Below, piece after piece: positions 25,821-40,242 of a DNA stretch of 49,003 nucleotides. Location: NCBI GenBank assembly GCA_947475815.1, contig CANJOT010000003.1:1-49003 (forward strand), given 5' to 3'. Both the position numbers and the translations under genes were made by a program. The notes beneath the pieces were generated by a model that was given only the letters and a program-made list of their open reading frames with translations, was not told the DNA's origin and made no database searches. This DNA is from Burkholderiales bacterium. Lineage in GTDB: Bacteria > Pseudomonadota > Gammaproteobacteria > Burkholderiales > Burkholderiaceae_D. Each line of letters opens with the position of its first letter. The first letter of the stretch is position 1.

Positions 25821-26285
25821 ATGAACACCAACATCCTGCTGACCGATGCGGTCAAGGCGCTGATCGGCCATGCCATGTGGGATGCGGAAACCGTCGAGGT
25901 GCACGAGAGCGACATTCTGCGTTACCACGAAGCCATCGAAGATCCGATGATCGTGCGCGACGACGACGGCGTGCTGCTCGCGCCGCCGCTGTTCCTGCCG
26001 CCCTTTCACCATGGCGGCACCATCGGCGAAGACGGCCGGCGCAGCAAACCGGGCGAGCTGGATATCGATTTGCCGGTCAAGCGTCGTTTGATGGCGGGTT
26101 GCGACATTCGTTTTGACGTGCCCATCCGTGCTGGCGACACCATCACCGCCACGACCACGATTACCAACCTGACCGAAAAACAGGGCAGCACCGGCCCGAT
26201 GCTGCTCATTGAAACGGCAACCGCTTATACCAACCAGAAGGGCCAGACCAACCGGATTGAAACCTGGGTGGTGATTCGCCGTTAG
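25821..26285 (+). CDS. FAS1-like dehydratase (MaoC N-terminal-like hot-dog) protein
   Basis: HAMWDAETVEVHESDILRYHEAIEDPMIV...APPLFLPPFHHGG...VPIRAGDTITATTTITNLTEKQG. Confidence 0.82.
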   Translation: MNTNILLTDAVKALIGHAMWDAETVEVHESDILRYHEAIEDPMIVRDDDGVLLAPPLFLPPFHHGGTIGEDGRRSKPGELDIDLPVKRRLMAGCDIRFDVPIRAGDTITATTTITNLTEKQGSTGPMLLIETATAYTNQKGQTNRIETWVVIRR

Positions 26286-27682
26286 GCCTGCAGCCGCGGC
26301 AACTGGGCCGCGAACGCCGTTTCGTCTTCCAGACAGCGCAGGTCGAGCTGCAGCTTGTTGTCGACCACGCGGCCCACGACCGGGATGGGCAGGGAGCGCA
26401 GGCGTTTGGCCAGCGCGTTCAGGGCAGAGCCGGCGCGTGCCTTGTTCGGGATGATGGACAGCGCGACGCTCGGCAGGGTTTCCACCGGCATCGAGCCACT
26501 GCCCACCTGACTCTTGACCGCTGCGATGTCTACCCGCCAGTCTGGACCGAGTGCACTGGCCAGCGGTGCGCGCAGGCGATCGGCCAGGCCCTGCATCTGT
26601 TCGAGCGGTCGCGTCAGCAGGCGCAGCGTGGGTAATTCCTGGGTCAGGCGTTCGGGATGACGATAGGTCAGCAGGCTGGCCTCCAGCGCCGCCAGCGTCA
26701 GCTTGGAAACACGCAGGGCGCGTTTGAGCGGGTGGCGTTTGATCTTGGCGATCAGGTCTTTGCGGCCGACGATCAGGCCGGCCTGGGGTCCGCCGAGCAG
26801 CTTGTCGCCGCTGAAGGTGACGACGTCGGCACCTGCAGCGAGCACGTCGCGCACCACCGGCTCTTTGGGCAGACCATAGGCCGACAGGTCGATCAGGCTG
26901 CCGGCACCGAGGTCGACCAGATAGGGCAGGTTATGGCGATGGGCGATTTGTGCTACCTCGCTGCCCGACACCTCGGCGACAAACCCGCTAATGGTGTAAT
27001 TGCTGGCATGCACCTTCATGAGCGCCGCGCTGCGTGGGCCGATGGCCTCTTCGTAATCGCTCGCGTGGGTGCGGTTGGTCGTGCCGATTTCCACCAGACG
27101 CGTATTGGCGCTGCGCATGACATCGGGAATGCGGAAGGCGCCGCCAATTTCTACCAGTTCGCCGCGCGATACGATCACTTCACGGCGCGGCGCCAGTGCG
27201 GCCAGCACCAGCAGCACGGCGGCGGCATTATTGTTCACCACCGTGACCGCTTCGGCACCGGTCAGATCGCGCAGCAGTGATTCGACCAGGCTGTCGCGTT
27301 CACCGCGCCCGCCACTGTCGATCTCGTATTCCAGATTGCAGGCCTCGGTCATGGCCATGTTGACGTGCGCGATGGCGCTGGCCGGCAACAAGGCACGGCC
27401 CAGATTGGTGTGCAACACGGTACCAGTCAGATTGAACATGCGCCGCAAGGAAGGCGTGGCGCGTTGCTCAACGAAAGACGTGACTTGCTGCGTGAGCTCG
27501 TTTTCACTGGCCGCTGCTTGTTCGGGCGCTGTTGCGCGGTGCGCGCGCGCTCGTTCGAGCACATCACGCACTGCGTCGACCGTGGCGCTGCGTCCGAAGC
27601 GCGCAATCAGGTCCTCGACGGCGGGCAGGCGCATGAGCCGGTCGACGGATGGAAAAGGGCTGGATTTTTTTTCGTGGGTCAT
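26282..27682 (-). CDS. selA: L-seryl-tRNA(Sec) selenium transferase
   Basis: FNLTGTVLHTNLGRALLP; VVNNNAAAVLLVL; FSGDKLLGGPQAGLIVG (PLP lysine). Confidence 0.97.
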   Translation of the reverse strand: MTHEKKSSPFPSVDRLMRLPAVEDLIARFGRSATVDAVRDVLERARAHRATAPEQAAASENELTQQVTSFVEQRATPSLRRMFNLTGTVLHTNLGRALLPASAIAHVNMAMTEACNLEYEIDSGGRGERDSLVESLLRDLTGAEAVTVVNNNAAAVLLVLAALAPRREVIVSRGELVEIGGAFRIPDVMRSANTRLVEIGTTNRTHASDYEEAIGPRSAALMKVHASNYTISGFVAEVSGSEVAQIAHRHNLPYLVDLGAGSLIDLSAYGLPKEPVVRDVLAAGADVVTFSGDKLLGGPQAGLIVGRKDLIAKIKRHPLKRALRVSKLTLAALEASLLTYRHPERLTQELPTLRLLTRPLEQMQGLADRLRAPLASALGPDWRVDIAAVKSQVGSGSMPVETLPSVALSIIPNKARAGSALNALAKRLRSLPIPVVGRVVDNKLQLDLRCLEDETAFAAQLPRLQA

Positions 27683-27932
27683 GGATGAGGAGGCTGTGAG
27701 CGGACCGCCGTGGTGCCTGTGCGTGATTGTAACGATGAACCTGTCATGCGCGCGATGGAACGACAGGTTAAAATGTGTGCGTCACATCGTGAAACGGTGT
27801 CTGGCCCTTTCCGCCGGACCGGCGGCGAAACGCGGCATCATGCACCATTACAGGGAATTCCAGTCGTTGGCATCCATCAGGCAGGGATCTGGCCCCGAGA
27901 TTTTTCCTTACTCGCACATCTGAACGGTCCCC

Positions 27933-29960
27933 ATGCTCGTCGCTACCGCCGGTCACATTGATCACGGCAAAACCTCGCTGGTTCGGGCACTCACGGGCGT
28001 TGAAACCGACCGGCTGCCCGAAGAGCGCGCGCGCGGCATTTCCATCGACCTCGGTTTTGCTTACTGGACGGTAGAAGGCCGGACCATCGGTTTTGTCGAC
28101 GTGCCCGGCCACGAGCGCTTTGTGCGCAACATGCTCGCCGGCGTGAGTGCTATCGACTTTGCCATGCTGGTGGTGGCAGCCGACGACGGCGTCATGCCCC
28201 AAAGCATCGAGCATGTGCAGATTCTCGATCTGCTCGGCGTCGCCCGTGGCGTGGTGGTGCTGACCAAGGTGGATCGGGTGGGCCGCGAACGCATCGACGA
28301 GGTGAGTGCTCAGGTGCGGGCGCTGCTGGCGTCTACCGTGCTGGCCCATTTTCCGGTGTTTGAAGTGTCGACCGTCGAGCGCACCGGCATCGAGGCGCTG
28401 TCGGCCGCGCTGATCGAAGCCCAGCGCACGGAAACCAGCCGGCGCGCCACCGGGCGCAATTTCCGTCTGGCCATCGATCGCGCCTTTTCCGTGCCGGGCA
28501 CGGGCACGGTGGTGACCGGCACTGTGCAGGATGGCCTGCTTGATGCCGGCGCCCATTTGTGCCTGTCGGCCAGCGGCCGCGAGGTGCGTGCGCGTGGCCT
28601 GCAAACGGGGGGCCACGAAGTGCCGGGCATCGGTCCGGGCGAACGTTGCGCCGTGAATCTGGCCGGCGCCGAAGTGGCGGACGTCAAGCGCGGCGACTGG
28701 CTGCTGGTGCCGGGCATGGTGGCGCCAACGCGGCGCATCGAGGCGCGCCTGCATCTGCTGCCGGGCGAGTCGCACGGCCTGAAACACAATGCCGCTGTGC
28801 ATGTACACCTAGGCACCGCCGATGTTCTGGCCCGCGTCCTGATCCCGGGACAGGCGGGTCTCAAGGCTGGCGAAACTGGCTTGGTGACGCTGCTGCTTGA
28901 ACAGCCGGTGTGCACCTTCAATGGTGACCGTTTCATCGTGCGCGATCAATCGGCGCGGCGCACGCTCGGCGGTGGCCGTGTGGTCGACCCGCAGGTCAGC
29001 AATGACCGGCGTGACCAGGCCCATCGCGCGCGCTGCAGCGCGGCGCTTGAACGTTTCGAACCCGCGGCAGCGCTGGCGGGTTTGCTGGCCATCGATGGCC
29101 ATGAAGTGGATATCGTGCGCTTTGAGCGCAGCTTCAACCTTGAGCCGGCCTACGCTCGCACCCTGTATGAGCAGGCCAATGCGCTGGTGTTTGGCCGCAG
29201 CCGGCCGGTGGCCCTGCCGGCTGCGGCGATCGAAGCCTTGCGCGAGGCCATTGTGGCCGCGCTCGGAGAATTCCATCGCAAGCAGGCCGATGCGCCCGGC
29301 ATGGCGGTGCGCGCCCTGAAGGCCGAGGTTGCGCCCGGCCTGTCGATTGAAACCTTCCTGGCGGTACAAAAAGAGCTGGTTGAACAGCGCCGCATCGAAT
29401 CCGGCGGCAACCTGCTCAAACTGCCCGGTCATGTTGCCGGGACACGCACCGCCGACCGGGCGCTGTGGGAGCGTCTGTTGCCCAAGCTCAAGGAACGCGG
29501 TGTGGTGCCCCTGACCACGCGCGAGCTGGCCGACGAGTTGCGCACTGGCGAGGCAACGGTCAAGGCCTTGCTGTACCGCCGGCGCGCCGAAGGCGAGGTC
29601 TGGCGCATCACGGACGAGCGCTTTTTGCCGCGCGAAATCGTCGCCCAGCTGGCCGCCTCCGCCGCATTGCTGATGAACAAATCCGAAGGCAAGGGTTTCA
29701 CCGCGGCGCAGTACCGCGATGTGGTGGGCTGCGGACGCACCCTGGCGATTCAGATTCTGGAATTTTTTGATGGCATCGGGGTGACCCGGCGCAGCACCGA
29801 TTTGCGTAAAATGCTGCCGGATTACGAACTCATCGTCGGCCTGGCCGCGCCCATCATCGCCGAGCGGCCGCCGAACAATCCAGCCCAGCCGGCGCCCAAG
29901 CAGAAAACCAATCCCGGACCCGGCTCGCCCCAGCGACCGTCCCGACCTACCAGGAGTTAA
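27933..29960 (+). CDS. selB: Selenocysteine-specific elongation factor
   Basis: MLVATAGHIDHGKTSLVRALTGVETDRLPEERARGISIDLGFAY; long C-terminal region of winged-helix type. Confidence 0.97.
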   Translation: MLVATAGHIDHGKTSLVRALTGVETDRLPEERARGISIDLGFAYWTVEGRTIGFVDVPGHERFVRNMLAGVSAIDFAMLVVAADDGVMPQSIEHVQILDLLGVARGVVVLTKVDRVGRERIDEVSAQVRALLASTVLAHFPVFEVSTVERTGIEALSAALIEAQRTETSRRATGRNFRLAIDRAFSVPGTGTVVTGTVQDGLLDAGAHLCLSASGREVRARGLQTGGHEVPGIGPGERCAVNLAGAEVADVKRGDWLLVPGMVAPTRRIEARLHLLPGESHGLKHNAAVHVHLGTADVLARVLIPGQAGLKAGETGLVTLLLEQPVCTFNGDRFIVRDQSARRTLGGGRVVDPQVSNDRRDQAHRARCSAALERFEPAAALAGLLAIDGHEVDIVRFERSFNLEPAYARTLYEQANALVFGRSRPVALPAAAIEALREAIVAALGEFHRKQADAPGMAVRALKAEVAPGLSIETFLAVQKELVEQRRIESGGNLLKLPGHVAGTRTADRALWERLLPKLKERGVVPLTTRELADELRTGEATVKALLYRRRAEGEVWRITDERFLPREIVAQLAASAALLMNKSEGKGFTAAQYRDVVGCGRTLAIQILEFFDGIGVTRRSTDLRKMLPDYELIVGLAAPIIAERPPNNPAQPAPKQKTNPGPGSPQRPSRPTRS

Positions 29961-29966
29961 AAACCC

Positions 29967-30872
29967 ATGAGTAATTTCGACGTCATCGTCATTGGCCAGG
30001 GTTACGCCGGCCTGACCGCCGCCAAGCTGGCTGCTCAAAAAGGCCTGCGCACGGCCAATCTTGAAGCCGAGATGTTTGGCGGTCTGATCATCAACATCAA
30101 TGAGCTCGATCCCGTGCCGGCCGATGCGGCGGCAGCGGGCACCGCCTCCGGCGTCGATCTGGCCAGCAACCTCGCCATGGAAAACATGGACGCCGGTATC
30201 GAGGCGATCTCCGAGCCGGTGACCGCCATTGCCCAGCAGGCCAGTGGCGGTTTTGTCGTGACGACCGACGGCGGCCGTTACACGGCACGCAACGTCATCA
30301 TTGCCACGGGCGCGAAGTTTCGCACGCTCGGCATCCCCGGCGAGGCCGAGTTTGTCGGTCGCGGTGTGTCCAATTGCGGCGACTGTGATGGCCCGATGTT
30401 TCAGGGCAAGGAAGCGGTTGTCGTCGGCGGCGGGGATTCAGCCTTTCAGGAAGCGCATGCCCTGGTGCAGTGGTGTTCGCGTGTGACCATCGTGTTTCGC
30501 GGGGAAGCCCCGCGTGCTGCCGCCCATTTTATCGAGCACCTGGCCGGCAATCCGAAAGTCGTGCTGATGAATCGCACCACGCCGCTGGCCATCCTTGGCA
30601 GCAATGGTGTGGATGGGCTGCGGGTGTCGCGCGAGGGTGAAGGCGAATCGACGCTGGCCTGCGCCGGCGTGTTTGTGTTTGCCGGCCTCGAACCCAACAC
30701 GGCCTGCGCGCCTGCCGATCTGGCGCGCGACGAGGGGGGCTGTCTGGTGGTATCGGACAAGCGGGCCACTGCCTTGCCGGGCCTGTGGGCGATTGGTGCC
30801 GTGCGTGCCGGGTTCGGCGGCAGCCTGAGTGATGCTGCCGAAGATGCCGCCCTGGTGGTTGGCGCCCTTTGA
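29967..30872 (+). CDS. Thioredoxin reductase-like FAD-dependent oxidoreductase
   Basis: VIGQGYAGLTAAKLAAQKGL; NCGDCDGPMFQGKEAVVVGGGDSAFQEA (CxxC plus second Rossmann); 6 nt after selB. Confidence 0.92.
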   Translation: MSNFDVIVIGQGYAGLTAAKLAAQKGLRTANLEAEMFGGLIININELDPVPADAAAAGTASGVDLASNLAMENMDAGIEAISEPVTAIAQQASGGFVVTTDGGRYTARNVIIATGAKFRTLGIPGEAEFVGRGVSNCGDCDGPMFQGKEAVVVGGGDSAFQEAHALVQWCSRVTIVFRGEAPRAAAHFIEHLAGNPKVVLMNRTTPLAILGSNGVDGLRVSREGEGESTLACAGVFVFAGLEPNTACAPADLARDEGGCLVVSDKRATALPGLWAIGAVRAGFGGSLSDAAEDAALVVGAL

Positions 30873-30885
30873 TTCTGCTCCAGCC

Positions 30886-32004
30886 TTAACGGCCGGCGAG
30901 CGCTGCCGGAAACGGTACGCCCGCCTGCTCGCCAAGCTTGCTGCAGTGCTCAATGATGTGCGCATCCAGCGGCACACCCAGCCGGCCCCGCTCGGCGCGC
31001 AACGTCGCGCTGCGGTCGCCCGGCACGGCCACCGGGCCCTGACCCTCGACCGGGCGCGTGCCGCGAATGTGATCGGCCATGCGCTTCATCTCGGCCTTGA
31101 ATTCCACCGGATCGATGAAGGCGTCAATGCGCCAGGCTGCAAACCACTGGCCCTGCTGCCACGCCGGGGTGTAGGTCTGCCACAGGCCTGAGCCGGTGCC
31201 CGACAGGATGCCGCTGACCACCTCGACCATCATCGCCAGGCCATAACCCTTGTAACCGCCGCCCTCGGGGGTGGCGCCCAAATACAGCAGAGAGCCGCCT
31301 TCCTCGCGCACGTAGGCCGAGGTGCTCGCCTTGCCGTCCTTGTCGACTGCCCAGCCGGGCGGAATGTCAACGCCGCGGCGCTGCGCCACGCGCAGGTTCA
31401 GGCCGGCCGCCAGCGTGGTCGCCATGTCGAGCGACAGCGGGTGCGAGCCTTCGACCGGCGCGGCAAAGGCAATCGGATTGGTGCCCGCCACCGGCTCGGT
31501 GCCGCCGGGTGGAAAACTGCTGGCAATCGAATGGCTCATGACCATGCCGATCATGTCGTGCTCGGCGGCCATGCGCGCGTAATAACCGATCGCGCCGCAA
31601 TGGCAGCCGTTGCGCACCGTAATCATGCCGATGCCGGTGTTGCGCGCCTTGTCGATGGCCGCGTTCATGGCGTGACAGGCCACCACCGGCCCCAGGCCGC
31701 GGCCTGAATCCCACGAGGCAGCGACCGGCGAGTCGCGCAATACTTTCATCTCGGGACGGGGCTGGACCGAGCCTGATTGCAGGCCCTTGGCGTACTGCAG
31801 GTGCACCGGGAAATTGGCGATGCCATGGGTGTCGACGCCCGACAGGTCGGCATCGCTGATGGCGCGGGCACCGAGTTGCGCGTCAGCGCTGGAGAGGCCG
31901 TAATGTTCCAGTACGGCCTCGATGAACTGACGCAAGGCGCTGGCGTCGTAACGGGGGCGCGGGTCGTGTGCCGGTGTTGTGCTCGTGTCTGAAGCGGATA
32001 CCAA
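30886..32004 (-). CDS. Ldh family (malate/L-lactate/ureidoglycolate-type) oxidoreductase
   Basis: SGVDTHGIANFPVHLQYAKGLQ; NGCHCGAIGYYARMAAEHDMIGMVMSHS; PVAGTNPIAFAAP. Confidence 0.93.
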   Translation of the reverse strand: MVSASDTSTTPAHDPRPRYDASALRQFIEAVLEHYGLSSADAQLGARAISDADLSGVDTHGIANFPVHLQYAKGLQSGSVQPRPEMKVLRDSPVAASWDSGRGLGPVVACHAMNAAIDKARNTGIGMITVRNGCHCGAIGYYARMAAEHDMIGMVMSHSIASSFPPGGTEPVAGTNPIAFAAPVEGSHPLSLDMATTLAAGLNLRVAQRRGVDIPPGWAVDKDGKASTSAYVREEGGSLLYLGATPEGGGYKGYGLAMMVEVVSGILSGTGSGLWQTYTPAWQQGQWFAAWRIDAFIDPVEFKAEMKRMADHIRGTRPVEGQGPVAVPGDRSATLRAERGRLGVPLDAHIIEHCSKLGEQAGVPFPAALAGR

Positions 32005-32076
32005 GTCGGTCTTCCTTATTATCGATCGCTGCCGGGCATGCCGCTGCCGGTGATCACCGTCGATGGCGTCCGTGGT

Positions 32077-32988
32077 TTATTGCGGCACCGTATGCTGAGT
32101 GCCGGGCGCTGAGGAGGTCGCCTTGCGTCGTTCGCGACGCTCATGGAGGTTGTCGAGCAGGCGTTCCGGGGTGACGCGGGCCGGGATGAACGGCGGGCAG
32201 GGTTCCGGGCGGCGCTGTCGGCCAAAGACGGTTTCGCTGATGTCCTGCAGGCGTTGCGCCGTGCGTTTCAGTACCGCCAGGCTGTTTTCGAGACGCGCAT
32301 GGGTGAAATGGCCGGCCGGTGCGCAGATCATAACCGACGCGAAGGCTTCCTGTTTTTGAAAAAGGGCGATGGCGTATGAATTCCAGCCCGGCACCAGTCG
32401 GCCTTCGTTGTAGCCCATGCCCATTTCCAGCGATTGGTTGAGCAAACGCTCGAGCGAGGGGTGCACGCTGGTGGCCTGCTGGGTCAGGGCCAGGCAATTG
32501 CGTTCGAAGAGGGCTTGGCGCTCCTCGGCCGGCAGGGTGATCAGCAAGGCCGCGCCACCGCTGGAGCCCGCCAGCGGCCGGCGGGTGCCGAGGTTGAGCG
32601 TGAACGCATGGTCGGGTACTTCGCCGATGCGTGCTGCACAGACCAGATCGTCACCGCTGCGCAGACAGAGAAAGCCGACTGCATTGGTCTGGCTGGAAAG
32701 CTGATCGAGCAGCGGGTAGGCCGCCATTTTGAATTCGTCGAAATCAGTCAGTGCGAGACCGAGTTCAAACAGCAGCGGGCCCGGCAGGTAACGCTGGTCA
32801 GCGGGGCTGCGCTCGGCCAGACGCTCGCGCACCAGACAGGTCAGGATGCGCCGCGCCGTGCCTTTGTCGATGTCGCAATGGCGCGCCAGATCGGACAGGC
32901 GCCAGCCGAAACGCGCTCGCGCAGCCAATGCCCGCATCAGCTTGATGGACCGCTCAATACTCTGGGTGCCGCCTCTTGCCGCTGTCAT
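32077..32988 (-). CDS. IclR-family transcriptional regulator
   Basis: TQSIERSIKLMRALAARARFGWRLSDLARHCDIDKGTARRILTCLVRERL. Confidence 0.93.
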   Translation of the reverse strand: MTAARGGTQSIERSIKLMRALAARARFGWRLSDLARHCDIDKGTARRILTCLVRERLAERSPADQRYLPGPLLFELGLALTDFDEFKMAAYPLLDQLSSQTNAVGFLCLRSGDDLVCAARIGEVPDHAFTLNLGTRRPLAGSSGGAALLITLPAEERQALFERNCLALTQQATSVHPSLERLLNQSLEMGMGYNEGRLVPGWNSYAIALFQKQEAFASVMICAPAGHFTHARLENSLAVLKRTAQRLQDISETVFGRQRRPEPCPPFIPARVTPERLLDNLHERRERRKATSSAPGTQHTVPQ

Positions 32989-33063
32989 GATCGCTCGATG
33001 GATGACGTACGCCGCCTGCAGGGAGATAGTATCAGCCGTCGCAGAGCGCGGCTATGGACAACG

Positions 33064-33110
33064 CCGGGAGGGTGCAGCGGCGTCTGGCGCGCCGTGCTGC
33101 ACCCTCCCGG
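33064..33110 (-). terminator. Strong stem-loop downstream of selenoprotein gene (terminator or 3' stabiliser; no obvious U tract)
   Basis: 15-bp perfect inverted repeat CCGGGAGGGTGCAGC / GCTGCACCCTCCCGG between the gene's stop codon and the IclR gene. Confidence 0.6.
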
Positions 33111-33114
33111 GACC

Positions 33115-34818
33115 TTAGCGGACCAGGTCGTGGACCGATTGCAGCGGCGACCCATCGGCGCGCACGATGGGTCGCGTGATCAGATGGGTGCCGTTGAAGG
33201 TCGCCAGGATGGCACTGTGCGGGCCGCTTTCACCGCCGCCGACCGCAATGCCGATATCCTCCGGGTTGACCGTCGGGTAGATGATTTCCTTGCCGTCCTC
33301 GATGCGCAGGGTGCGCTGCTTCCATTCCTTGATCGCCTTGTAGGAGGTCGGATGGAAACCCTTGAGCTCGAACTTCGCGTGCTCCCAGAGATACCTGCGG
33401 ATTGCCGGCTTGTCGAAGCCGCCCTCGGCCATCTGTCGCGCCTGCACCGGGCTGATGATGACCATCGGTTCGTGGTCAAAGATGGTGCAGTTGCTGCCCG
33501 CCGAGGTCATGGCACGCGCCAGAATGTTGAGAATGGTGACCGGGTCGGACGACAGCTCGATGACGTTTTGCGGCGCCGCCGTGGCGACTGCCGTGACGGT
33601 CGACGTCGAGGCGTCGTAGCCTTTTTCCACATGGTAGGGAATCCACGGGCTCATGGCTTCGTTTTCGGCGATGCATGAACCCCATTTGTTCGGATTGCCC
33701 AGCGTCGACATGTCGCCTTCGCCGGGCCGCCCACCGCCGATGTTGGACAGGCACAGACGCACCGCGCGGCCTATCGTACCGTTGGCATACCAGCCCTGAC
33801 CAAACAGGTTGGTGCCGCCGTTGATGTCGAGCTCGCGCGCGATCGGACCGTTGACCATCAGCATCACGCCGGCCGGATTGGTCGTGCCCTGCACACCGTA
33901 GATGTTGAGCTTGGGATCCAGCACGGCTTCGATGCCGGCGACCACGACCGGGAAATATTCCGGCCGGCAGCCAGCCATGACGGCATTGACCGCCACATGA
34001 TGGATGGTGGTCGGCGCCCAGCTGGGCCCCATGTTGCCCAGCACCGTGGCGGGTGCCCGGTCGGTATAGCGCAGCATCGCCGTGACGCGTTCTACCGTGG
34101 GTGGCACGATCGGCAGACCGTCGCTCCACTTGCGTTCGTAAAACGTGCGGTTGACGTTTTCGTACGACAGGTCGTCAATGTCGGTGACCAGCAGCGACTT
34201 TGACTTCATCGCCTCGGCGACCTTGTCCATCTCCAGCTTGGAGCCGTCGGGCATTTTCGTCAGGCCGCGAACGATGTCGTCGCGGATGGCGATGGCGCGC
34301 CGCTGCGCTTCCTCGGTCGACACGCCACCCATCGGGTAGGGCACGACCGCGACCGGCAGCGCTGGCATGCCGAGCGCTTTGCGTTCGTAATTGGCCAGCA
34401 CGGTAAAACGTGTGGCAACCAGCGTGACCGTCGGGATGCCCCGGCGTTCCAGTTCATACGCGTCATGGATACTCCACGACGTGCACGATCCTCAGTCGCC
34501 TAAGGCGACGACTGCGGCCTGACAGGTGGAGGCAATCTCGTTGAGGATGTCTTCACTCGCGCCCAGACTACAGCTGGTTTTTTCGCGGAACAGGGTGCCG
34601 GCGGCACCGAGCTTCATGACCTCGTCTTCGGTGGTGTGCAGCAGCACATCGCAATTTGGCTTGAGGTTGCCGAGAAAGCCAATGCGCAGGCCCTGCAGGG
34701 AACCGCCGCGTTGTGCGAGTGTGATGCCGCTCAGGTCTTCGACCGGGACCGGACACATCAGGGCACCCGGGGGAGCGCTCACGGCCGGTCCGGAGGTCTG
34801 GTTGGATTGCTGGTTCAT
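33115..34818 (-). CDS. UGSC-motif selenoprotein (567 aa including Sec109); in-frame UGA at 34492..34494 read as selenocysteine
   Basis: ORFs 34492..34905 and 33115..34401 are in the same frame. The codons between them read GAC TGA GGA TCG TGC ACG TCG TGG (D-U-G-S-C-T-S-W) and stay open for 31 codons into the second ORF. SECIS-like hairpin follows. selA, selB and selC are nearby. Confidence 0.93.
34461..34481 (-). promoter_or_regulatory. Bacterial SECIS-like hairpin downstream of Sec UGA
   Basis: CGTCGTGGA-GTA-TCCATGACG: 9 pairs with one G-U, beginning 11 nt after the UGA; G in apical loop at +20. Confidence 0.72.
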
Positions 34819-34854
34819 GATTGCCCCTATGGGTTCTGAAGCTGCTTTTTTGAC

Positions 34855-34948
34855 TGGCGGAAGAGGTGAGAGTCGAACACACCGAAGACGCGCAGCGCCT
34901 TCCACCGGGTTTGAAGTCCGGGCATCCCACCGGGGATGTTTCTCTTCC
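34855..34948 (-). tRNA. selC: tRNA-Sec (anticodon UCA), CCA encoded
   Basis: GGAAGAGAAACATCCCCGGTGGGATGCCCGGACTTCAAACCCGGTGGAAGGCGCTGCGCGTCTTCGGTGTGTTCGACTCTCACCTCTTCCGCCA: 6-bp D stem with 4-nt loop, TCA anticodon, 8-bp variable arm, G73 discriminator. Confidence 0.94.
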
Positions 34949-35282
34949 GTGATTCCATCGTATCACCGCTCAGGCGGAAATGCTTACCGAGCACGCCCGG
35001 CCCCAGCGTCTTATTGAGATTATGCGAGGGGACCGCAGCGAACCCAAGACAGGAAGTGGCGCATTCGGTGCGCGAGTATCACAATGTGACGGGGCGCGAT
35101 TGTGCGATCCGCCCAAGTGTTTAGAATCGCCAAGACCGGCCATGGACTCGCAGAGTCTTTCGAATAACGTTCACACTGAATACGGCATGGATGGGAGACT
35201 GGGTGACTGACCGAACAAGAATAAGCTGCGGCGCGACCCCCGTGCGTGGTGCTGACCTGCTGGCTGGTTTCTGAGGCCCATC

Positions 35283-36404
35283 ATGTTCATTCAAGTTGAA
35301 AATGTCGCCAGGATTTTTGCGCGCCGCCGGGGTGATCCGGGCAACAAACAGAATGCCGCCCTCGGTGGCGTGAGCGTGGCCGTGGCCAAGGGCAAAATGC
35401 TCGCCTTGGTGGGCCCGAGCGGCTCCGGCAAAACGACGCTGCTGCGCTGCATTGCCGGCCTTGAACAGCCGGACAGCGGCGTCATCCGCATTGGTGAGCG
35501 GGTCGTGTATGCGTCCGGCGAAGGCATCAACGTGCCGACCGAGCAGCGCAACCTCGGGCTGATTTTCCAGAGTTACGCCCTGTGGCCCAACATGACGGTG
35601 CAGCGCAATGTGGCTTATCCCCTGCGTCGCCGCAAGGTCGCCGATGCCGAGTGCAACACCCGTGTGGCACGGTATCTTGACCTGGTGGGCTGTGGGCATC
35701 TGGCGCAACGCTACCCGCACGAACTGAGCGGTGGCCAGCAGCAGCGCATTGCTCTGGCGCGCGCGCTGGTGTACGAGCCGGCCGTGGTGTTGTTCGACGA
35801 GCCGCTCAGCAACCTCGATCCCATGCTGCGTGAACATCTGCGCGCGCAGATCCGCGACATCCAGCGCAGCGTCGGTTTTACCGGCGTGTATGTGACGCAC
35901 GACCAGAACGAAGCTTTTTATGTCGGCGATGAGGTGGTCATCCTCAGCGAAGGCAACATCGCCCAGGCCGGCTCACCCGATGAAATCTACCGGCGACCGG
36001 TGAGCAGCAAGGTTGCCGCGTTTGTCGGCGCCTCGAACAGTGTTGAAGGCCAGCTTGCCGATGGCGGGCAGACCTTCACCTCGGCGCAACTGGGCAGTCT
36101 GAAACTGGATCCGCCGGCGCTCGACCTGTACCAGTCGGGCGTTCGCGATGTCGTGCTCTTGACACGGCCCGAATCCACCACCCTGCGCGCCGTGTCCGCC
36201 GGGCCGCAGGCCGCGCGCATCATTGAACGGGTTCCCTCGGGCGGCATGGACGAATATGCCGTCAGCCTGCCTGGCGGTGGTGTCTGGCGTGCGCGCGTCG
36301 ACATGCGCACGCCGCGCCTTGAAGTCGGCACGAGCGTCGTGGTCGAGCCGTTCGCCGATGCCGTGCTGCTCTACCCGCGAGACGCGCGCGGGGAGTCGGC
36401 GTGA
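35283..36404 (+). CDS. ABC transporter ATP-binding protein (FbpC/PotA-like)
   Basis: LVGPSGSGKTTLLRCIAGLEQPDSG; HELSGGQQQRIALARALVYEPAVVLFDEPLSNLD. Confidence 0.94.
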   Translation: MFIQVENVARIFARRRGDPGNKQNAALGGVSVAVAKGKMLALVGPSGSGKTTLLRCIAGLEQPDSGVIRIGERVVYASGEGINVPTEQRNLGLIFQSYALWPNMTVQRNVAYPLRRRKVADAECNTRVARYLDLVGCGHLAQRYPHELSGGQQQRIALARALVYEPAVVLFDEPLSNLDPMLREHLRAQIRDIQRSVGFTGVYVTHDQNEAFYVGDEVVILSEGNIAQAGSPDEIYRRPVSSKVAAFVGASNSVEGQLADGGQTFTSAQLGSLKLDPPALDLYQSGVRDVVLLTRPESTTLRAVSAGPQAARIIERVPSGGMDEYAVSLPGGGVWRARVDMRTPRLEVGTSVVVEPFADAVLLYPRDARGESA

Positions 36405-38107
36405 AGATCGGCGCGAAGATCGGCGCGACCATGGCGGTGACCCGCGGCCGCTCCCTGAGCGCTTCCCTGCTCGGCCTGTCGATGGCCGTAATGGTGCTGG
36501 TATTGGTCGCCTGGCCGATGACCCAACTGGTCATCAGCACACTGGGCGGCGATGAAGGACCCTTGCACTACTATGTGGAAGCGTTCGACAGCCCGGTGGC
36601 CCTGTCGGCGCTGTGGGGCTCGGTCTGGCTGACGGTCGTCACGCTGTTGTTTGGCATCCCCCTGGCCATGCTGCTCGCCTGGATCACCAGCAGCACTGAT
36701 GCGCCGCTGGCCGAACCTCTCGAAGTGTTGCCCACGCTGACGCTGGCACTCTCGCCGCTGGTGGGTGCGATCGGCTGGATGGTTCTGCTTTCGCCGCGTG
36801 TGGGCATTCTCAATCTGCTGCTGCGCCAGTGGTTTGGCCTCGACATGGACAGCGGGCCGCTGAACGCCTTCAGCCTGCCGGTCATCATCATGCTGATGAC
36901 GTTTTATGTCGTGCCTTATATTTATGGGCCGGTCAATGGCGCGTTCCGGCAGGTTGACGCCAGCCTGCTCGAGGCGGCGCGTGCCTGCGGCGCCAGCAGT
37001 TCGGCGACCCTCTGGACCGTCACCCTGCCGCTGCTGCGCCCGGCGCTGCTGGCCGGTGGCCTGATCGGCGGGGTCATGGTGGCGTCGATGTTTGCCATTC
37101 CGCTGATCCTCTCGAGCGGTACCGGCCTGAACGTCATCCCCACGCAGATCTACCACTACATCAACCAGGAAGGCCGGCCCGGCCCGGCCATGGCTATGGC
37201 CTCGCTGCTCACCATCGTCACCGTCACGGCCATGGGGTTCTACTTCAAGGTATTGGGACGCGGCCGGTTTGTCACGGTGGCGGGCAAGGGCGCACGGCGT
37301 GTGCGCGTGGCCCTGGGCATCTGGCGCTGGCCGGCGACGCTGTTTGTGCTGCTGTTCCTGTTTCTGGCCATGGTCGTGCCGCTGTTGACGCTGCTCTATC
37401 TTTCACTTGTGGGCTTCTGGAGCAACAATGTCTTCAGTCAGCCGCTCAACTTCGTGCAATACCAGCGTCTGGTGGATTTTCCGGCGGCCGTGCAAGGGCT
37501 CTATAACAGCACCTGGCTGGCCGGCGTCGGTGCGACGCTGGCCCTGGTGGGCGGCTTCATCGCCAGCTACCGCCGCTTGCGCGTCCCGAGTCTGGTGACC
37601 CGCAGCGTCGCTTTTCTGGCCGGCTTGCCGCTGGGTATTCCGTCGATCGTGCTTGGTCTGGCGTTTCTGTATACCTTCACCGGCGGGCCGCTGCCCCTGT
37701 ACGGTACGGCCTTCATCCTGATCGCCTGTTATGCCATCCACGTCATGCCGATTGCCATGCGCAACAGCGACGCCAGCCTGTTGCGGGTTTCGCCCGAACT
37801 GGAAGAAGCCGGTCTGGTCTGCGGCGATACGCGCAGCGGCATCGTCTGGCGCATTCTGCTGCCGGCAATCCGCCAGCCGCTGCTGACGGCCTGGGGACTG
37901 AGTTTCATCATCCTGTTTCGCGATCTGTCGATCTCCATCCTGATGTACACCTCCTCGACCACGCCATCGTCGGTCGCCTTGCTGGGCATTTTTGATCAGG
38001 GCTGGATCACCGGCGCGGCAGCGTATTCGATCATCATGACCGTCATCAGCGCAGGGGTGGTAGCGATGATCATCAAGACCAGTTCCCGCATCGAGTCCGT
38101 CGAATAA
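36401..38107 (+). CDS. ABC transporter permease, two fused permease domains (FbpB-like); ATG at 36431 is an alternative start
   Basis: Two EAA-like regions (EAARACGASSSATLWTVTLPLLRPA; EEAGLVCGDTRSGIVWRILLPAIRQP), about 12 TM helices. Confidence 0.92.
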   Translation: MKIGAKIGATMAVTRGRSLSASLLGLSMAVMVLVLVAWPMTQLVISTLGGDEGPLHYYVEAFDSPVALSALWGSVWLTVVTLLFGIPLAMLLAWITSSTDAPLAEPLEVLPTLTLALSPLVGAIGWMVLLSPRVGILNLLLRQWFGLDMDSGPLNAFSLPVIIMLMTFYVVPYIYGPVNGAFRQVDASLLEAARACGASSSATLWTVTLPLLRPALLAGGLIGGVMVASMFAIPLILSSGTGLNVIPTQIYHYINQEGRPGPAMAMASLLTIVTVTAMGFYFKVLGRGRFVTVAGKGARRVRVALGIWRWPATLFVLLFLFLAMVVPLLTLLYLSLVGFWSNNVFSQPLNFVQYQRLVDFPAAVQGLYNSTWLAGVGATLALVGGFIASYRRLRVPSLVTRSVAFLAGLPLGIPSIVLGLAFLYTFTGGPLPLYGTAFILIACYAIHVMPIAMRNSDASLLRVSPELEEAGLVCGDTRSGIVWRILLPAIRQPLLTAWGLSFIILFRDLSISILMYTSSTTPSSVALLGIFDQGWITGAAAYSIIMTVISAGVVAMIIKTSSRIESVE

Positions 38108-38160
38108 GCGCTTGCGCGACGGTTCTTGCAGTGCACGCAGGCAACATAAAGGAGACAGCC

Positions 38161-39105
38161 ATGAAGTTGCGGATCGGAGTCATCGGGACCGGTGTGATTG
38201 GCGGCGGCATGGTGCGCCGCGCGCTCGCCGAGGGACACGAGGTCGGCGTGTTTGACTTGCGTGCCGAGGTCCTCGAGGAACTCGCGGCGGTCGGCGCGCG
38301 ACCTGCCAGCAGTTCTGCTGATCTGGCGGCGCACTGCGATACCGTGGTCATCAGCCTGCCGCGCGCCGAGGACGTTGAAAAAGCCTGCTTTGCTGCCGCT
38401 GGACTGCTCGAAGGCCTGCGCCCGGGTATGGTGGTGATCGACAGTTCGACGACGCCGCCGGCCGGCATGGAAAAGCTGCGTCAGGCCGTGACCGCACGGG
38501 GCGCGCATCTGATTGATGCGCCACTGTGCCCGTCGCAAAACCGCGAACTGCAATTCCGGCCCATCCCTACCCGGCCAGGATCGTTCAATGCCGCCGGGTA
38601 TGCTTCCGAAGCCGGCAACCTGTGTTTTTTTGTTGGCGGCGACACGGCCGATGTGGCGCTGGCGCGGCCCGTGCTTGAGGTGCTCGGCCTCGAATTTCAC
38701 CATGTGGGCCCGCTTGGATCCGGCAAGCTCGTCAAGCTCTTGCATAACGCCATCAACATCACGGCGCTGGCGGCGATCTCGGAGGCCATGCTAGTCGCCA
38801 AACGCAATGATCTGGACTTGCGCGTGGTCACCGAAGCGCTCATGACCAGCCTGGCCGACAGCGCCATGCTGCGTCAGCAGGGACGCAAATTCATCGCCGA
38901 GCAGCATTTTCCGAAGGGTCTGTTTCCTCTGCATTTTTCCGTCAAGGACCTTGGTTACGCCCTCGACTGCGCGCGTGCCGTCGGGGTCGTGCCGAGCGTG
39001 ACGGGCGCGACACACGCCCTGTACACGCGTGCTGCTGCCAGTCCTTACGGCGATTATTACAACCCGGCGATTTTCCGTTTCATTGAAGACGAGGCGAGCA
39101 CGTGA
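38161..39105 (+). CDS. NAD(P)-dependent beta-hydroxyacid dehydrogenase (3-hydroxyisobutyrate dehydrogenase family)
   Basis: MKLRIGVIGTGVIGGGMVRRALAEGHEVGVFDL; GPLGSGKLVKLLHNAINI. Confidence 0.92.
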   Translation: MKLRIGVIGTGVIGGGMVRRALAEGHEVGVFDLRAEVLEELAAVGARPASSSADLAAHCDTVVISLPRAEDVEKACFAAAGLLEGLRPGMVVIDSSTTPPAGMEKLRQAVTARGAHLIDAPLCPSQNRELQFRPIPTRPGSFNAAGYASEAGNLCFFVGGDTADVALARPVLEVLGLEFHHVGPLGSGKLVKLLHNAINITALAAISEAMLVAKRNDLDLRVVTEALMTSLADSAMLRQQGRKFIAEQHFPKGLFPLHFSVKDLGYALDCARAVGVVPSVTGATHALYTRAAASPYGDYYNPAIFRFIEDEAST

Positions 39106-39635
39106 GCGCCGTCGGACTGGGGGCGCGCCTGAGCGAACGGCTGGCCGCGCAGGGCCTCACCCATCTGGTCAGTGTCGCCAATGGCGAGGGCTTCGGTTTA
39201 TACCAGGCGTTCAAGACTGATAGCCGCTGCCGCGTGATTGATGCCTGTCGCGAAGGCGAGGCCGTGGCCTTGTGTTGCGGTCTGGTGCTGGGCGGGCAGT
39301 TACCCGTGCTGTCGATCGAGAATTTCGGTTTGTTCGAATGCCTGGACACGCTGCGCGCCCTGCCGCTCGACATCGGCATTCCGATGCTGCTGGTGATCGG
39401 TTATACCGGCCGCGGCGGCAAAACCCCGGAGGGCGAGGCGGCGCTGGTCGAACGTCTGGGCAACATCGGCCCGCAGGCCGCGCTGGCCGGCCGCTGGACC
39501 GAACCGGTGCTGCAACTGGCCGGTATTCCCTTCTGGTATCTCGATCCGGCCGACAGCGGCGCCGTGTGTGATGAAGCGCTTGCCCTGTGCCGCAGTTCCA
39601 GCCGGCCGGTGGCGCTGCTGGTTGACCTGACCTGA
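39102..39635 (+). CDS. TPP-dependent decarboxylase-like, PYR-domain subunit (sulfopyruvate decarboxylase alpha-like)
   Basis: LVSVANGEGFGLYQAF...REGEAVALCCGLVLGGQLPVLSIENFG. Confidence 0.75.
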   Translation: MSAVGLGARLSERLAAQGLTHLVSVANGEGFGLYQAFKTDSRCRVIDACREGEAVALCCGLVLGGQLPVLSIENFGLFECLDTLRALPLDIGIPMLLVIGYTGRGGKTPEGEAALVERLGNIGPQAALAGRWTEPVLQLAGIPFWYLDPADSGAVCDEALALCRSSSRPVALLVDLT

Positions 39636-39648
39636 CCCGGGGCCCCTC

Positions 39649-40242
39649 ATGAATCTTGCCGACATCCTCTCCGATCTCTCCGCCCATCGTGGCGACGAAG
39701 TCGTCATCGCCACCATGACCGCCGGTTTTGCCTGGCCACTGCACAGTCATAGCGCGCGCGACTTCTGTTACATCGCGCCCATGGGGTCGGCCTCGTCCAT
39801 TGGCCTTGGTCTGGCCCTGGCGCGGCCCGACCTGCGGGTATGGGTGCTCGATGGCGACGGCTCGCTGCTCATGAACCTCGGTACGCTCGTCACCATCGGC
39901 GCGCAGTCCCCACGCAATTTGGTGCACATCGTTCTGAACAATGGTGTGTACGCCATCACCGGCGGGCAGCGCGTGCCGGGCAGCGGCGTGGCCGATCTGG
40001 CGGCCATGGCGCGCGCTGCCGGGGTGTCGACCACCTTCACCCTCGAAAACACGGCCGACTGGAAGGAGTTTCTGGTCAACGGCCTGTCAGGCCAGGGTCC
40101 GGTATTTGTCGATGTGCGCGTTGCACCTGCGTACGACCGGCCCGCTGTGCCGGCCATGACGCACACGGCGCGCGCCCTGATGACCCAGGGCGGGCCGGGG
40201 TTTCACAATCTGCGCGCCCTGCTCAGGCCGCAAACCCCTTGA
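39649..40242 (+). CDS. TPP-binding (PP-domain) subunit (sulfopyruvate decarboxylase beta-like)
   Basis: FCYIAPMGSASSIGLGLALARPDLRVWVLDGDGSLLMNLGTLVTIGAQSPRNLVHIVLNNGVYAITGGQ. Confidence 0.82.
   Translation: MNLADILSDLSAHRGDEVVIATMTAGFAWPLHSHSARDFCYIAPMGSASSIGLGLALARPDLRVWVLDGDGSLLMNLGTLVTIGAQSPRNLVHIVLNNGVYAITGGQRVPGSGVADLAAMARAAGVSTTFTLENTADWKEFLVNGLSGQGPVFVDVRVAPAYDRPAVPAMTHTARALMTQGGPGFHNLRALLRPQTP

Follow-up and report, generated by a model that had tools for sequence, protein, structure and literature searches.

tRNA-Sec gene identity

Within the 49,003-nucleotide stretch of Burkholderiales DNA analyzed here (the window), a short minus-strand gene with a UCA anticodon raises the question of whether it is a genuine, working tRNA for selenocysteine (tRNA-Sec) and, if so, which proteins it serves.

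34855..34948, minus strand: tRNA-Sec gene (selC), UCA anticodon, 7+5 acceptor/T stem, G73, encoded CCA

Read from the sequence, the gene is 94 nt long and extends from G1 at 34948 to its CCA end at 34855. ARAGORN reports a tRNA-SeC (tca) at 34856-34949, one base shifted relative to these exact coordinates, and the gene scores 63.6 bits (E 1e-10) with the Rfam model RF01852, which is over the gathering cut-off of 47, so that the covariance-score check proposed in a preliminary description of this DNA does not refute it. At the level of sequence, these two independent programs confirm the locus as a genuine tRNA-Sec gene, bearing out the minus-strand, 94-nt, UCA-bearing tRNA-Sec that had been described. 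The UCA anticodon, 6-bp D stem with 4-nt loop, long variable arm and G73 by which a tRNA-Sec is recognized are all present, and the earlier account of the D arm, 8-bp variable arm, T loop and G73-CCA is correct.

A second, better tRNA-Sec was sought across the draft genome (3.93 Mb, 377 contigs, 98.7% complete, 5.4% estimated contamination), where the selC of the window is the sole match to RF01852 above the cut-off; no other place passes, and ARAGORN identifies the next matches (45.1 and 40.7 bits) as tRNA-Ser(UGA) and tRNA-Leu. As the genome has a tRNA-Sec gene, there is strong evidence that the organism can encode selenocysteine. Besides selC it encodes SelA, SelB and SelD (the SelD match scoring 426 bits).

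A seven-base-pair acceptor stem

The gene had been described as a close parallel of E. coli selC. That is true of its D arm, variable arm, T loop and G73-CCA, but its acceptor stem departs from the E. coli form, with 7 bp in place of 8. In the 3′ half, the T loop TTCGACT is followed by CTCAC (T stem), CTCTTCC (acceptor) and G73. This leaves just 12 nt from the T loop to G73, so the acceptor and T stems must be of the 7+5 and not the 8+5 form; the canonical 13-bp form is absent. The gene thus shares with E. coli selC and RF01852 the UCA anticodon, the 6-bp D stem and 4-nt loop, the long variable arm, the TTCGACT T loop and G73-CCA, and differs from E. coli selC in its 7-bp acceptor, a linker from acceptor to D stem that is one nucleotide longer (AAA, three nt) and two stem mismatches, U52·U62 in the T stem and A31·C39 at the top of the anticodon stem. 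An 8-nt acceptor was found in 44 of the 46 distinct tRNA-Sec genes sampled in the family; the two with 7 nt are that of the window and that of one relative (L077, genome G031), which has the same 7+5 form and the same 94-nt length.

tRNA-Sec genes of the 7+5 form are known from Gammaproteobacteria, Clostridiales, Spirochaetes, two Alphaproteobacteria and others, and some occur with intact Sec machinery (PMC5330540). The window gene has in common with these the 7 nt between the T stem and G73 and the extra linker nucleotide (their type D, position 7a), and its genome likewise contains the Sec machinery; the text of that study on 7+5 tRNA-Sec nowhere names a betaproteobacterium, to which group the organism of the window belongs. 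In E. coli the 8-bp acceptor stem is the main SelB determinant and an EF-Tu antideterminant (PMC7609411), which lends the 7-bp stem some mechanistic interest.

It may be asked whether the short acceptor and the U·U and A·C mismatches are instead signs of decay, making the gene a degenerate selC pseudogene. The stem lacks the feature that excludes EF-Tu and favors SelB in E. coli (PMC7609411), the two mismatches also count against a working gene, and the RF01852 score of 63.6 bits is the lowest among the 97 family genomes with a match. However, L077 retains the same form and length, 7+5 genes beside intact Sec machinery are documented (PMC5330540), and the genome, which has no other tRNA-Sec above the cut-off, retains at least 23 UGSC genes that contain a UGA and have invariant SECIS codons (see below), so that we regard decay as very unlikely. 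A different proposal, that the gene specifies an allo-tRNA or other serine tRNA that reads UGA, could draw on its 12-bp acceptor domain and UCA anticodon, as allo-tRNAs combine a 12-bp acceptor domain with serine identity (PMC7609411). Against this, the 7+5 fold is better than 8+4, which loses one G-C pair and adds an A·C pair, the 6-bp D stem and 4-nt loop are a feature for SelA, selA and selB lie in the same 9 kb, and the best-matching family is RF01852; the probability left to an allo-tRNA is negligible. We conclude that selC is apparently functional; it is an ordinary type of gene whose acceptor form is less common and whose position is unusual.

A selenoprotein gene directly downstream of selC

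The preliminary description was correct in identifying selC, but overlooked the selenoprotein gene that adjoins it downstream.

33115..34818, minus strand: UGSC-family selenoprotein gene, 567 aa with Sec109; ATG at 34818, 36 nt after the tRNA CCA
34492..34494, minus strand: in-frame TGA, the U of the UGSC motif, predicted selenocysteine codon
34454..34488, minus strand: SECIS-like hairpin immediately 3′ of the UGA; its inner stem is 34481-34461 and its loop begins with G

The frame contains a single in-frame TGA which, read as Sec, gives a product with the motif GDUGSCTSWS; the gene has both an in-frame UGA within U-G-S-C and a bacterial-type SECIS directly downstream. The Pfam domain PF24696 (UGSC) matches residues 21-187 at 155.7 bits (cut-off 25), and NCBIfam NF041046 gives 118.5, slightly short of its cut-off of 125. 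The C-terminal domain of ~350 aa has no Pfam or NCBIfam match. Three orthologs (L036-L038) are 63-68% identical over the whole length and keep the frame through the UGA; since they have no adjoining selC, the adjacency of selC and the UGSC gene is a local feature and not a conserved one. A UGSC domain fused to a conserved domain, Unknown_1, with UGA-encoded Sec has been reported from metagenome fragments (PMC2398784). The present protein is likened to that fusion by description, both having UGSC, a conserved unknown domain and UGA-encoded Sec; the difference is that here one genome holds fused, split and second-subtype (UGSC-TPAVLR) forms.

The 55 nt around the UGA fold at -22.2 kcal/mol (z -3.2). 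Type-1 UGSC genes share the hairpin, GTCGTGGAGTGTCCATGAC, with minor variations, and the type-2 genes (UGSCTPAVLR) have a different one, GCCCGCCGTGTTGCGGGC. Among 21 type-1 genes there is no synonymous variation at codons +4, +5, +7, +8 and +10 after the UGA (z 6 to 14, values that serve as a guide only, as paralogs are not independent), and across 16 type-2 genes the synonymous choices are fixed at codons +5, +6, +7 and +9. The flanking codons, which are the control, mostly vary as codon usage predicts, with a few isolated exceptions. Only one of the seven stem pairs varies, being G-U, G-C or a compensatory C-G (in L160, where a conserved His becomes Gln). With the other six invariant, covariation by itself is weak evidence, its score being reached by 24 of 500 shuffles.

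Were the downstream UGA a real stop and the following frame a separate gene, selC would have no adjoining client. Standard annotation would indeed split the gene at this codon, and relatives encode the UGSC and C-terminal domains separately. Yet the UGSC domain itself crosses the UGA (match 21-187, Sec at 109), the frame through it is conserved in the orthologs at 63-68% identity, and the SECIS codons are kept in all 37 sampled homologs with a UGA, which leaves termination at this codon extremely unlikely. With a tRNA-Sec present, it would be wrong to annotate the UGA codons in the UGSC genes of this genome as stops.

Arrangement of the sel genes and their neighbors

26282..27682, minus strand: selA, selenocysteine synthase (TIGR00474, 582.6 bits, cut-off 267.9)
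27933..29960, plus strand: selB, Sec-specific elongation factor with winged-helix domains (TIGR00475, 376.5 bits, cut-off 242.25)
29967..30872, plus strand: thioredoxin-reductase-like flavoprotein, 6 nt after selB, below the TIGR01292 cut-off

The selB product also matches SelB-wing_2 and SelB-wing_3, and the flavoprotein gene that follows selB encodes a possible electron donor. That selA, selB and selC lie within 9 kb, as had been noted, is accurate (their span is 8.7 kb, 26282-34948), with the qualification that the genes are not collinear: selA and selB are divergent, and selC is 4.9 kb beyond selB on the opposite strand to it. The three genes are not an operon.

Related genomes typically have selA-selB-selC, in this order, on one strand. 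Nine of them (L072-L076, L078, L079, L093 and L094) also have two UGSC-system genes upstream of selA in the same direction, one for the C-terminal domain and one for the UGSC domain. The window has in common with the operons of L072-L111 that the three genes are within a few kb, several of those operons having UGSC genes directly upstream; it differs in that selA and selB are divergent and selC is opposite to selB, in front of a fused UGSC gene. Because the relatives usually keep selA-selB-selC on one strand, the layout of the window resembles a known cluster that has been rearranged. One genome (G057) has two different tRNA-Sec genes (L046/L080, on G057:C81, and L079, on G057:C82), each directly after its own selB, and one of these two clusters holds UGSC genes.

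An ABC transporter gene pair (ATPase and fused permease) adjoins the orthologous UGSC gene both in the window (35283-38107) and in L036 (1-2246). Its nearest models are of the 2-aminoethylphosphonate type, below cut-off, and its linkage to the orthologous gene in both genomes suggests a linked substrate. The selenoprotein gene is also flanked, at 30886-32004 and 38131-40242, by Ldh_2-family, 3-hydroxyisobutyrate-dehydrogenase-like and sulfopyruvate-decarboxylase-like genes, which have sulfolactate and sulfopyruvate enzymes among their best NCBIfam models, none of them reaching its cut-off.

Expansion of the UGSC family

The draft genome contains 24 PF24696 matches, all above cut-off and each with exactly one in-frame TGA.

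L143-L166, genome G000: UGSC loci on contigs C3, C4, C17, C30, C50/C63, C66, C99, C106 and C115
L143-L166, genome G000, further contigs: UGSC loci on C122, C164, C165, C174, C182, C207, C222, C230 and C352

The matches at the ends of C50 and C63 share 149 identical bases and so represent one gene, giving 23 distinct genes. These fall into the subtypes UGSCTSW and UGSCTPAVLR and carry the hairpin specific to their subtype. The 22 that were compared are at most 71% identical, which makes them paralogs rather than strain duplicates. In a survey of the family that scored no more than eight candidates per genome, UGSC was above cut-off in 11 of 394 genomes, the ten others carrying one or two each; all ten have a tRNA-Sec, ~6.5 kb or less from a UGSC gene. 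Two betaproteobacterial drafts found via the nearest orthologs, G295 and G296, have 22 and 14 UGSC matches, 18 and 12 of them with TGA. The genome of the window has the most UGSC-rich gene set among the genomes examined, and each of its UGSC genes apparently relies on recoding of the UGA.

A search for tRNA-Sec in G295 and G296 found none; the best tRNA-Sec-like matches were rejected, being tRNA-Ser and tRNA-Leu. The corresponding contigs are probably missing from these drafts, or the tRNA-Sec there may be divergent. SelB was found in G295 only, on a 3.1-kb contig (loci of both drafts: L037, L038 and L135).

No Sec-type formate dehydrogenase was above cut-off in the genome of the window. Judged by the two families scanned, UGSC and Sec-type formate dehydrogenase, selC apparently serves an unusually UGSC-rich selenoproteome. 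For comparison, the largest bacterial selenoproteomes quoted in PMC13188914 comprise 57 genes in a deltaproteobacterial symbiont and 63 in a Methylomirabilota draft. We put forward only tentatively, and consider somewhat doubtful, the broader reading that in this betaproteobacterium a single 7+5 tRNA-Sec supports a selenoproteome that is largely one expanded family of at least 23 UGSC paralogs in two subtypes.

A UGSC gene with the same UGA and SECIS hairpin is also present on the IncP conjugative plasmid of Acidovorax sp. T1 (NZ_CP021650.1, L181 8235-8279), with IS1071 and IS91 elements and a gene of the PEP mutase/isocitrate lyase family close by; the annotated protein of this UGSC gene is short, ending at the UGA. 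The location on a conjugative plasmid indicates that such genes can probably move between bacteria.

Function of the UGSC proteins

From the family and its UxxC motif, we infer that the UGSC proteins likely carry out Sec-dependent redox or reductive chemistry. The UGSC domain weakly matches GrdF (E 4e-4) and PrdB (E 0.02), both below cut-offs; these are subunits of Sec-dependent reductases, and the weak similarity may serve as a lead only. PDB sequence searches were negative. An AlphaFold2 model of the fused protein, built with four sequences, had a mean pLDDT of 40, the UGSC domain alone reaching ~50-83 with a parallel alpha/beta fold, and a fold search of the PDB with this model returned nothing below E 0.001; given the poor model and empty search, we draw no function from structure. 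TctC receptors make up 24 of 86 neighbor proteins, a bare count that was not accepted as an association because it is not set against a genome background.

Proposed working of selC

It is very probable that selC is a working gene that would serve at least 23 UGSC proteins, the adjoining one included, by the SerRS/SelA/SelD/SelB route. The proposal builds on the computed gene identity, single copy above the cut-off, SelA, SelB and SelD, in-frame UGAs and conserved hairpin, from which we infer co-transcription, charging and decoding as follows. Transcription probably begins upstream of selC, within a divergent intergenic region of 334 nt, and probably reads on into the UGSC selenoprotein mRNA; no terminator-like site was found on the minus strand between selC and the UGSC ATG, which allows a joint transcript but does not prove it. 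RNase processing would free the tRNA from such a transcript. SerRS would then charge it with serine via G73 and the long variable arm, SelA, recognizing the 6-bp D stem, would make Sec-tRNA using selenophosphate from SelD, and SelB would deliver it to UGA codons followed by a SECIS hairpin. The predicted clients are the UGSC-family proteins of the genome, with that encoded immediately downstream among them.

The tRNA itself is of a known kind, and the interest lies in the UGSC expansion that it serves. Its 7-bp acceptor raises the testable question of how SelB and EF-Tu distinguish this tRNA-Sec from tRNA-Ser. The presence of at least 23 members of one selenoprotein family in many neighborhoods makes UGSC function approachable. 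If the paralogs are substrate-specific Sec enzymes of catabolic clusters, they would represent a Sec-dependent class that has diversified in the manner of the reductive dehalogenases.
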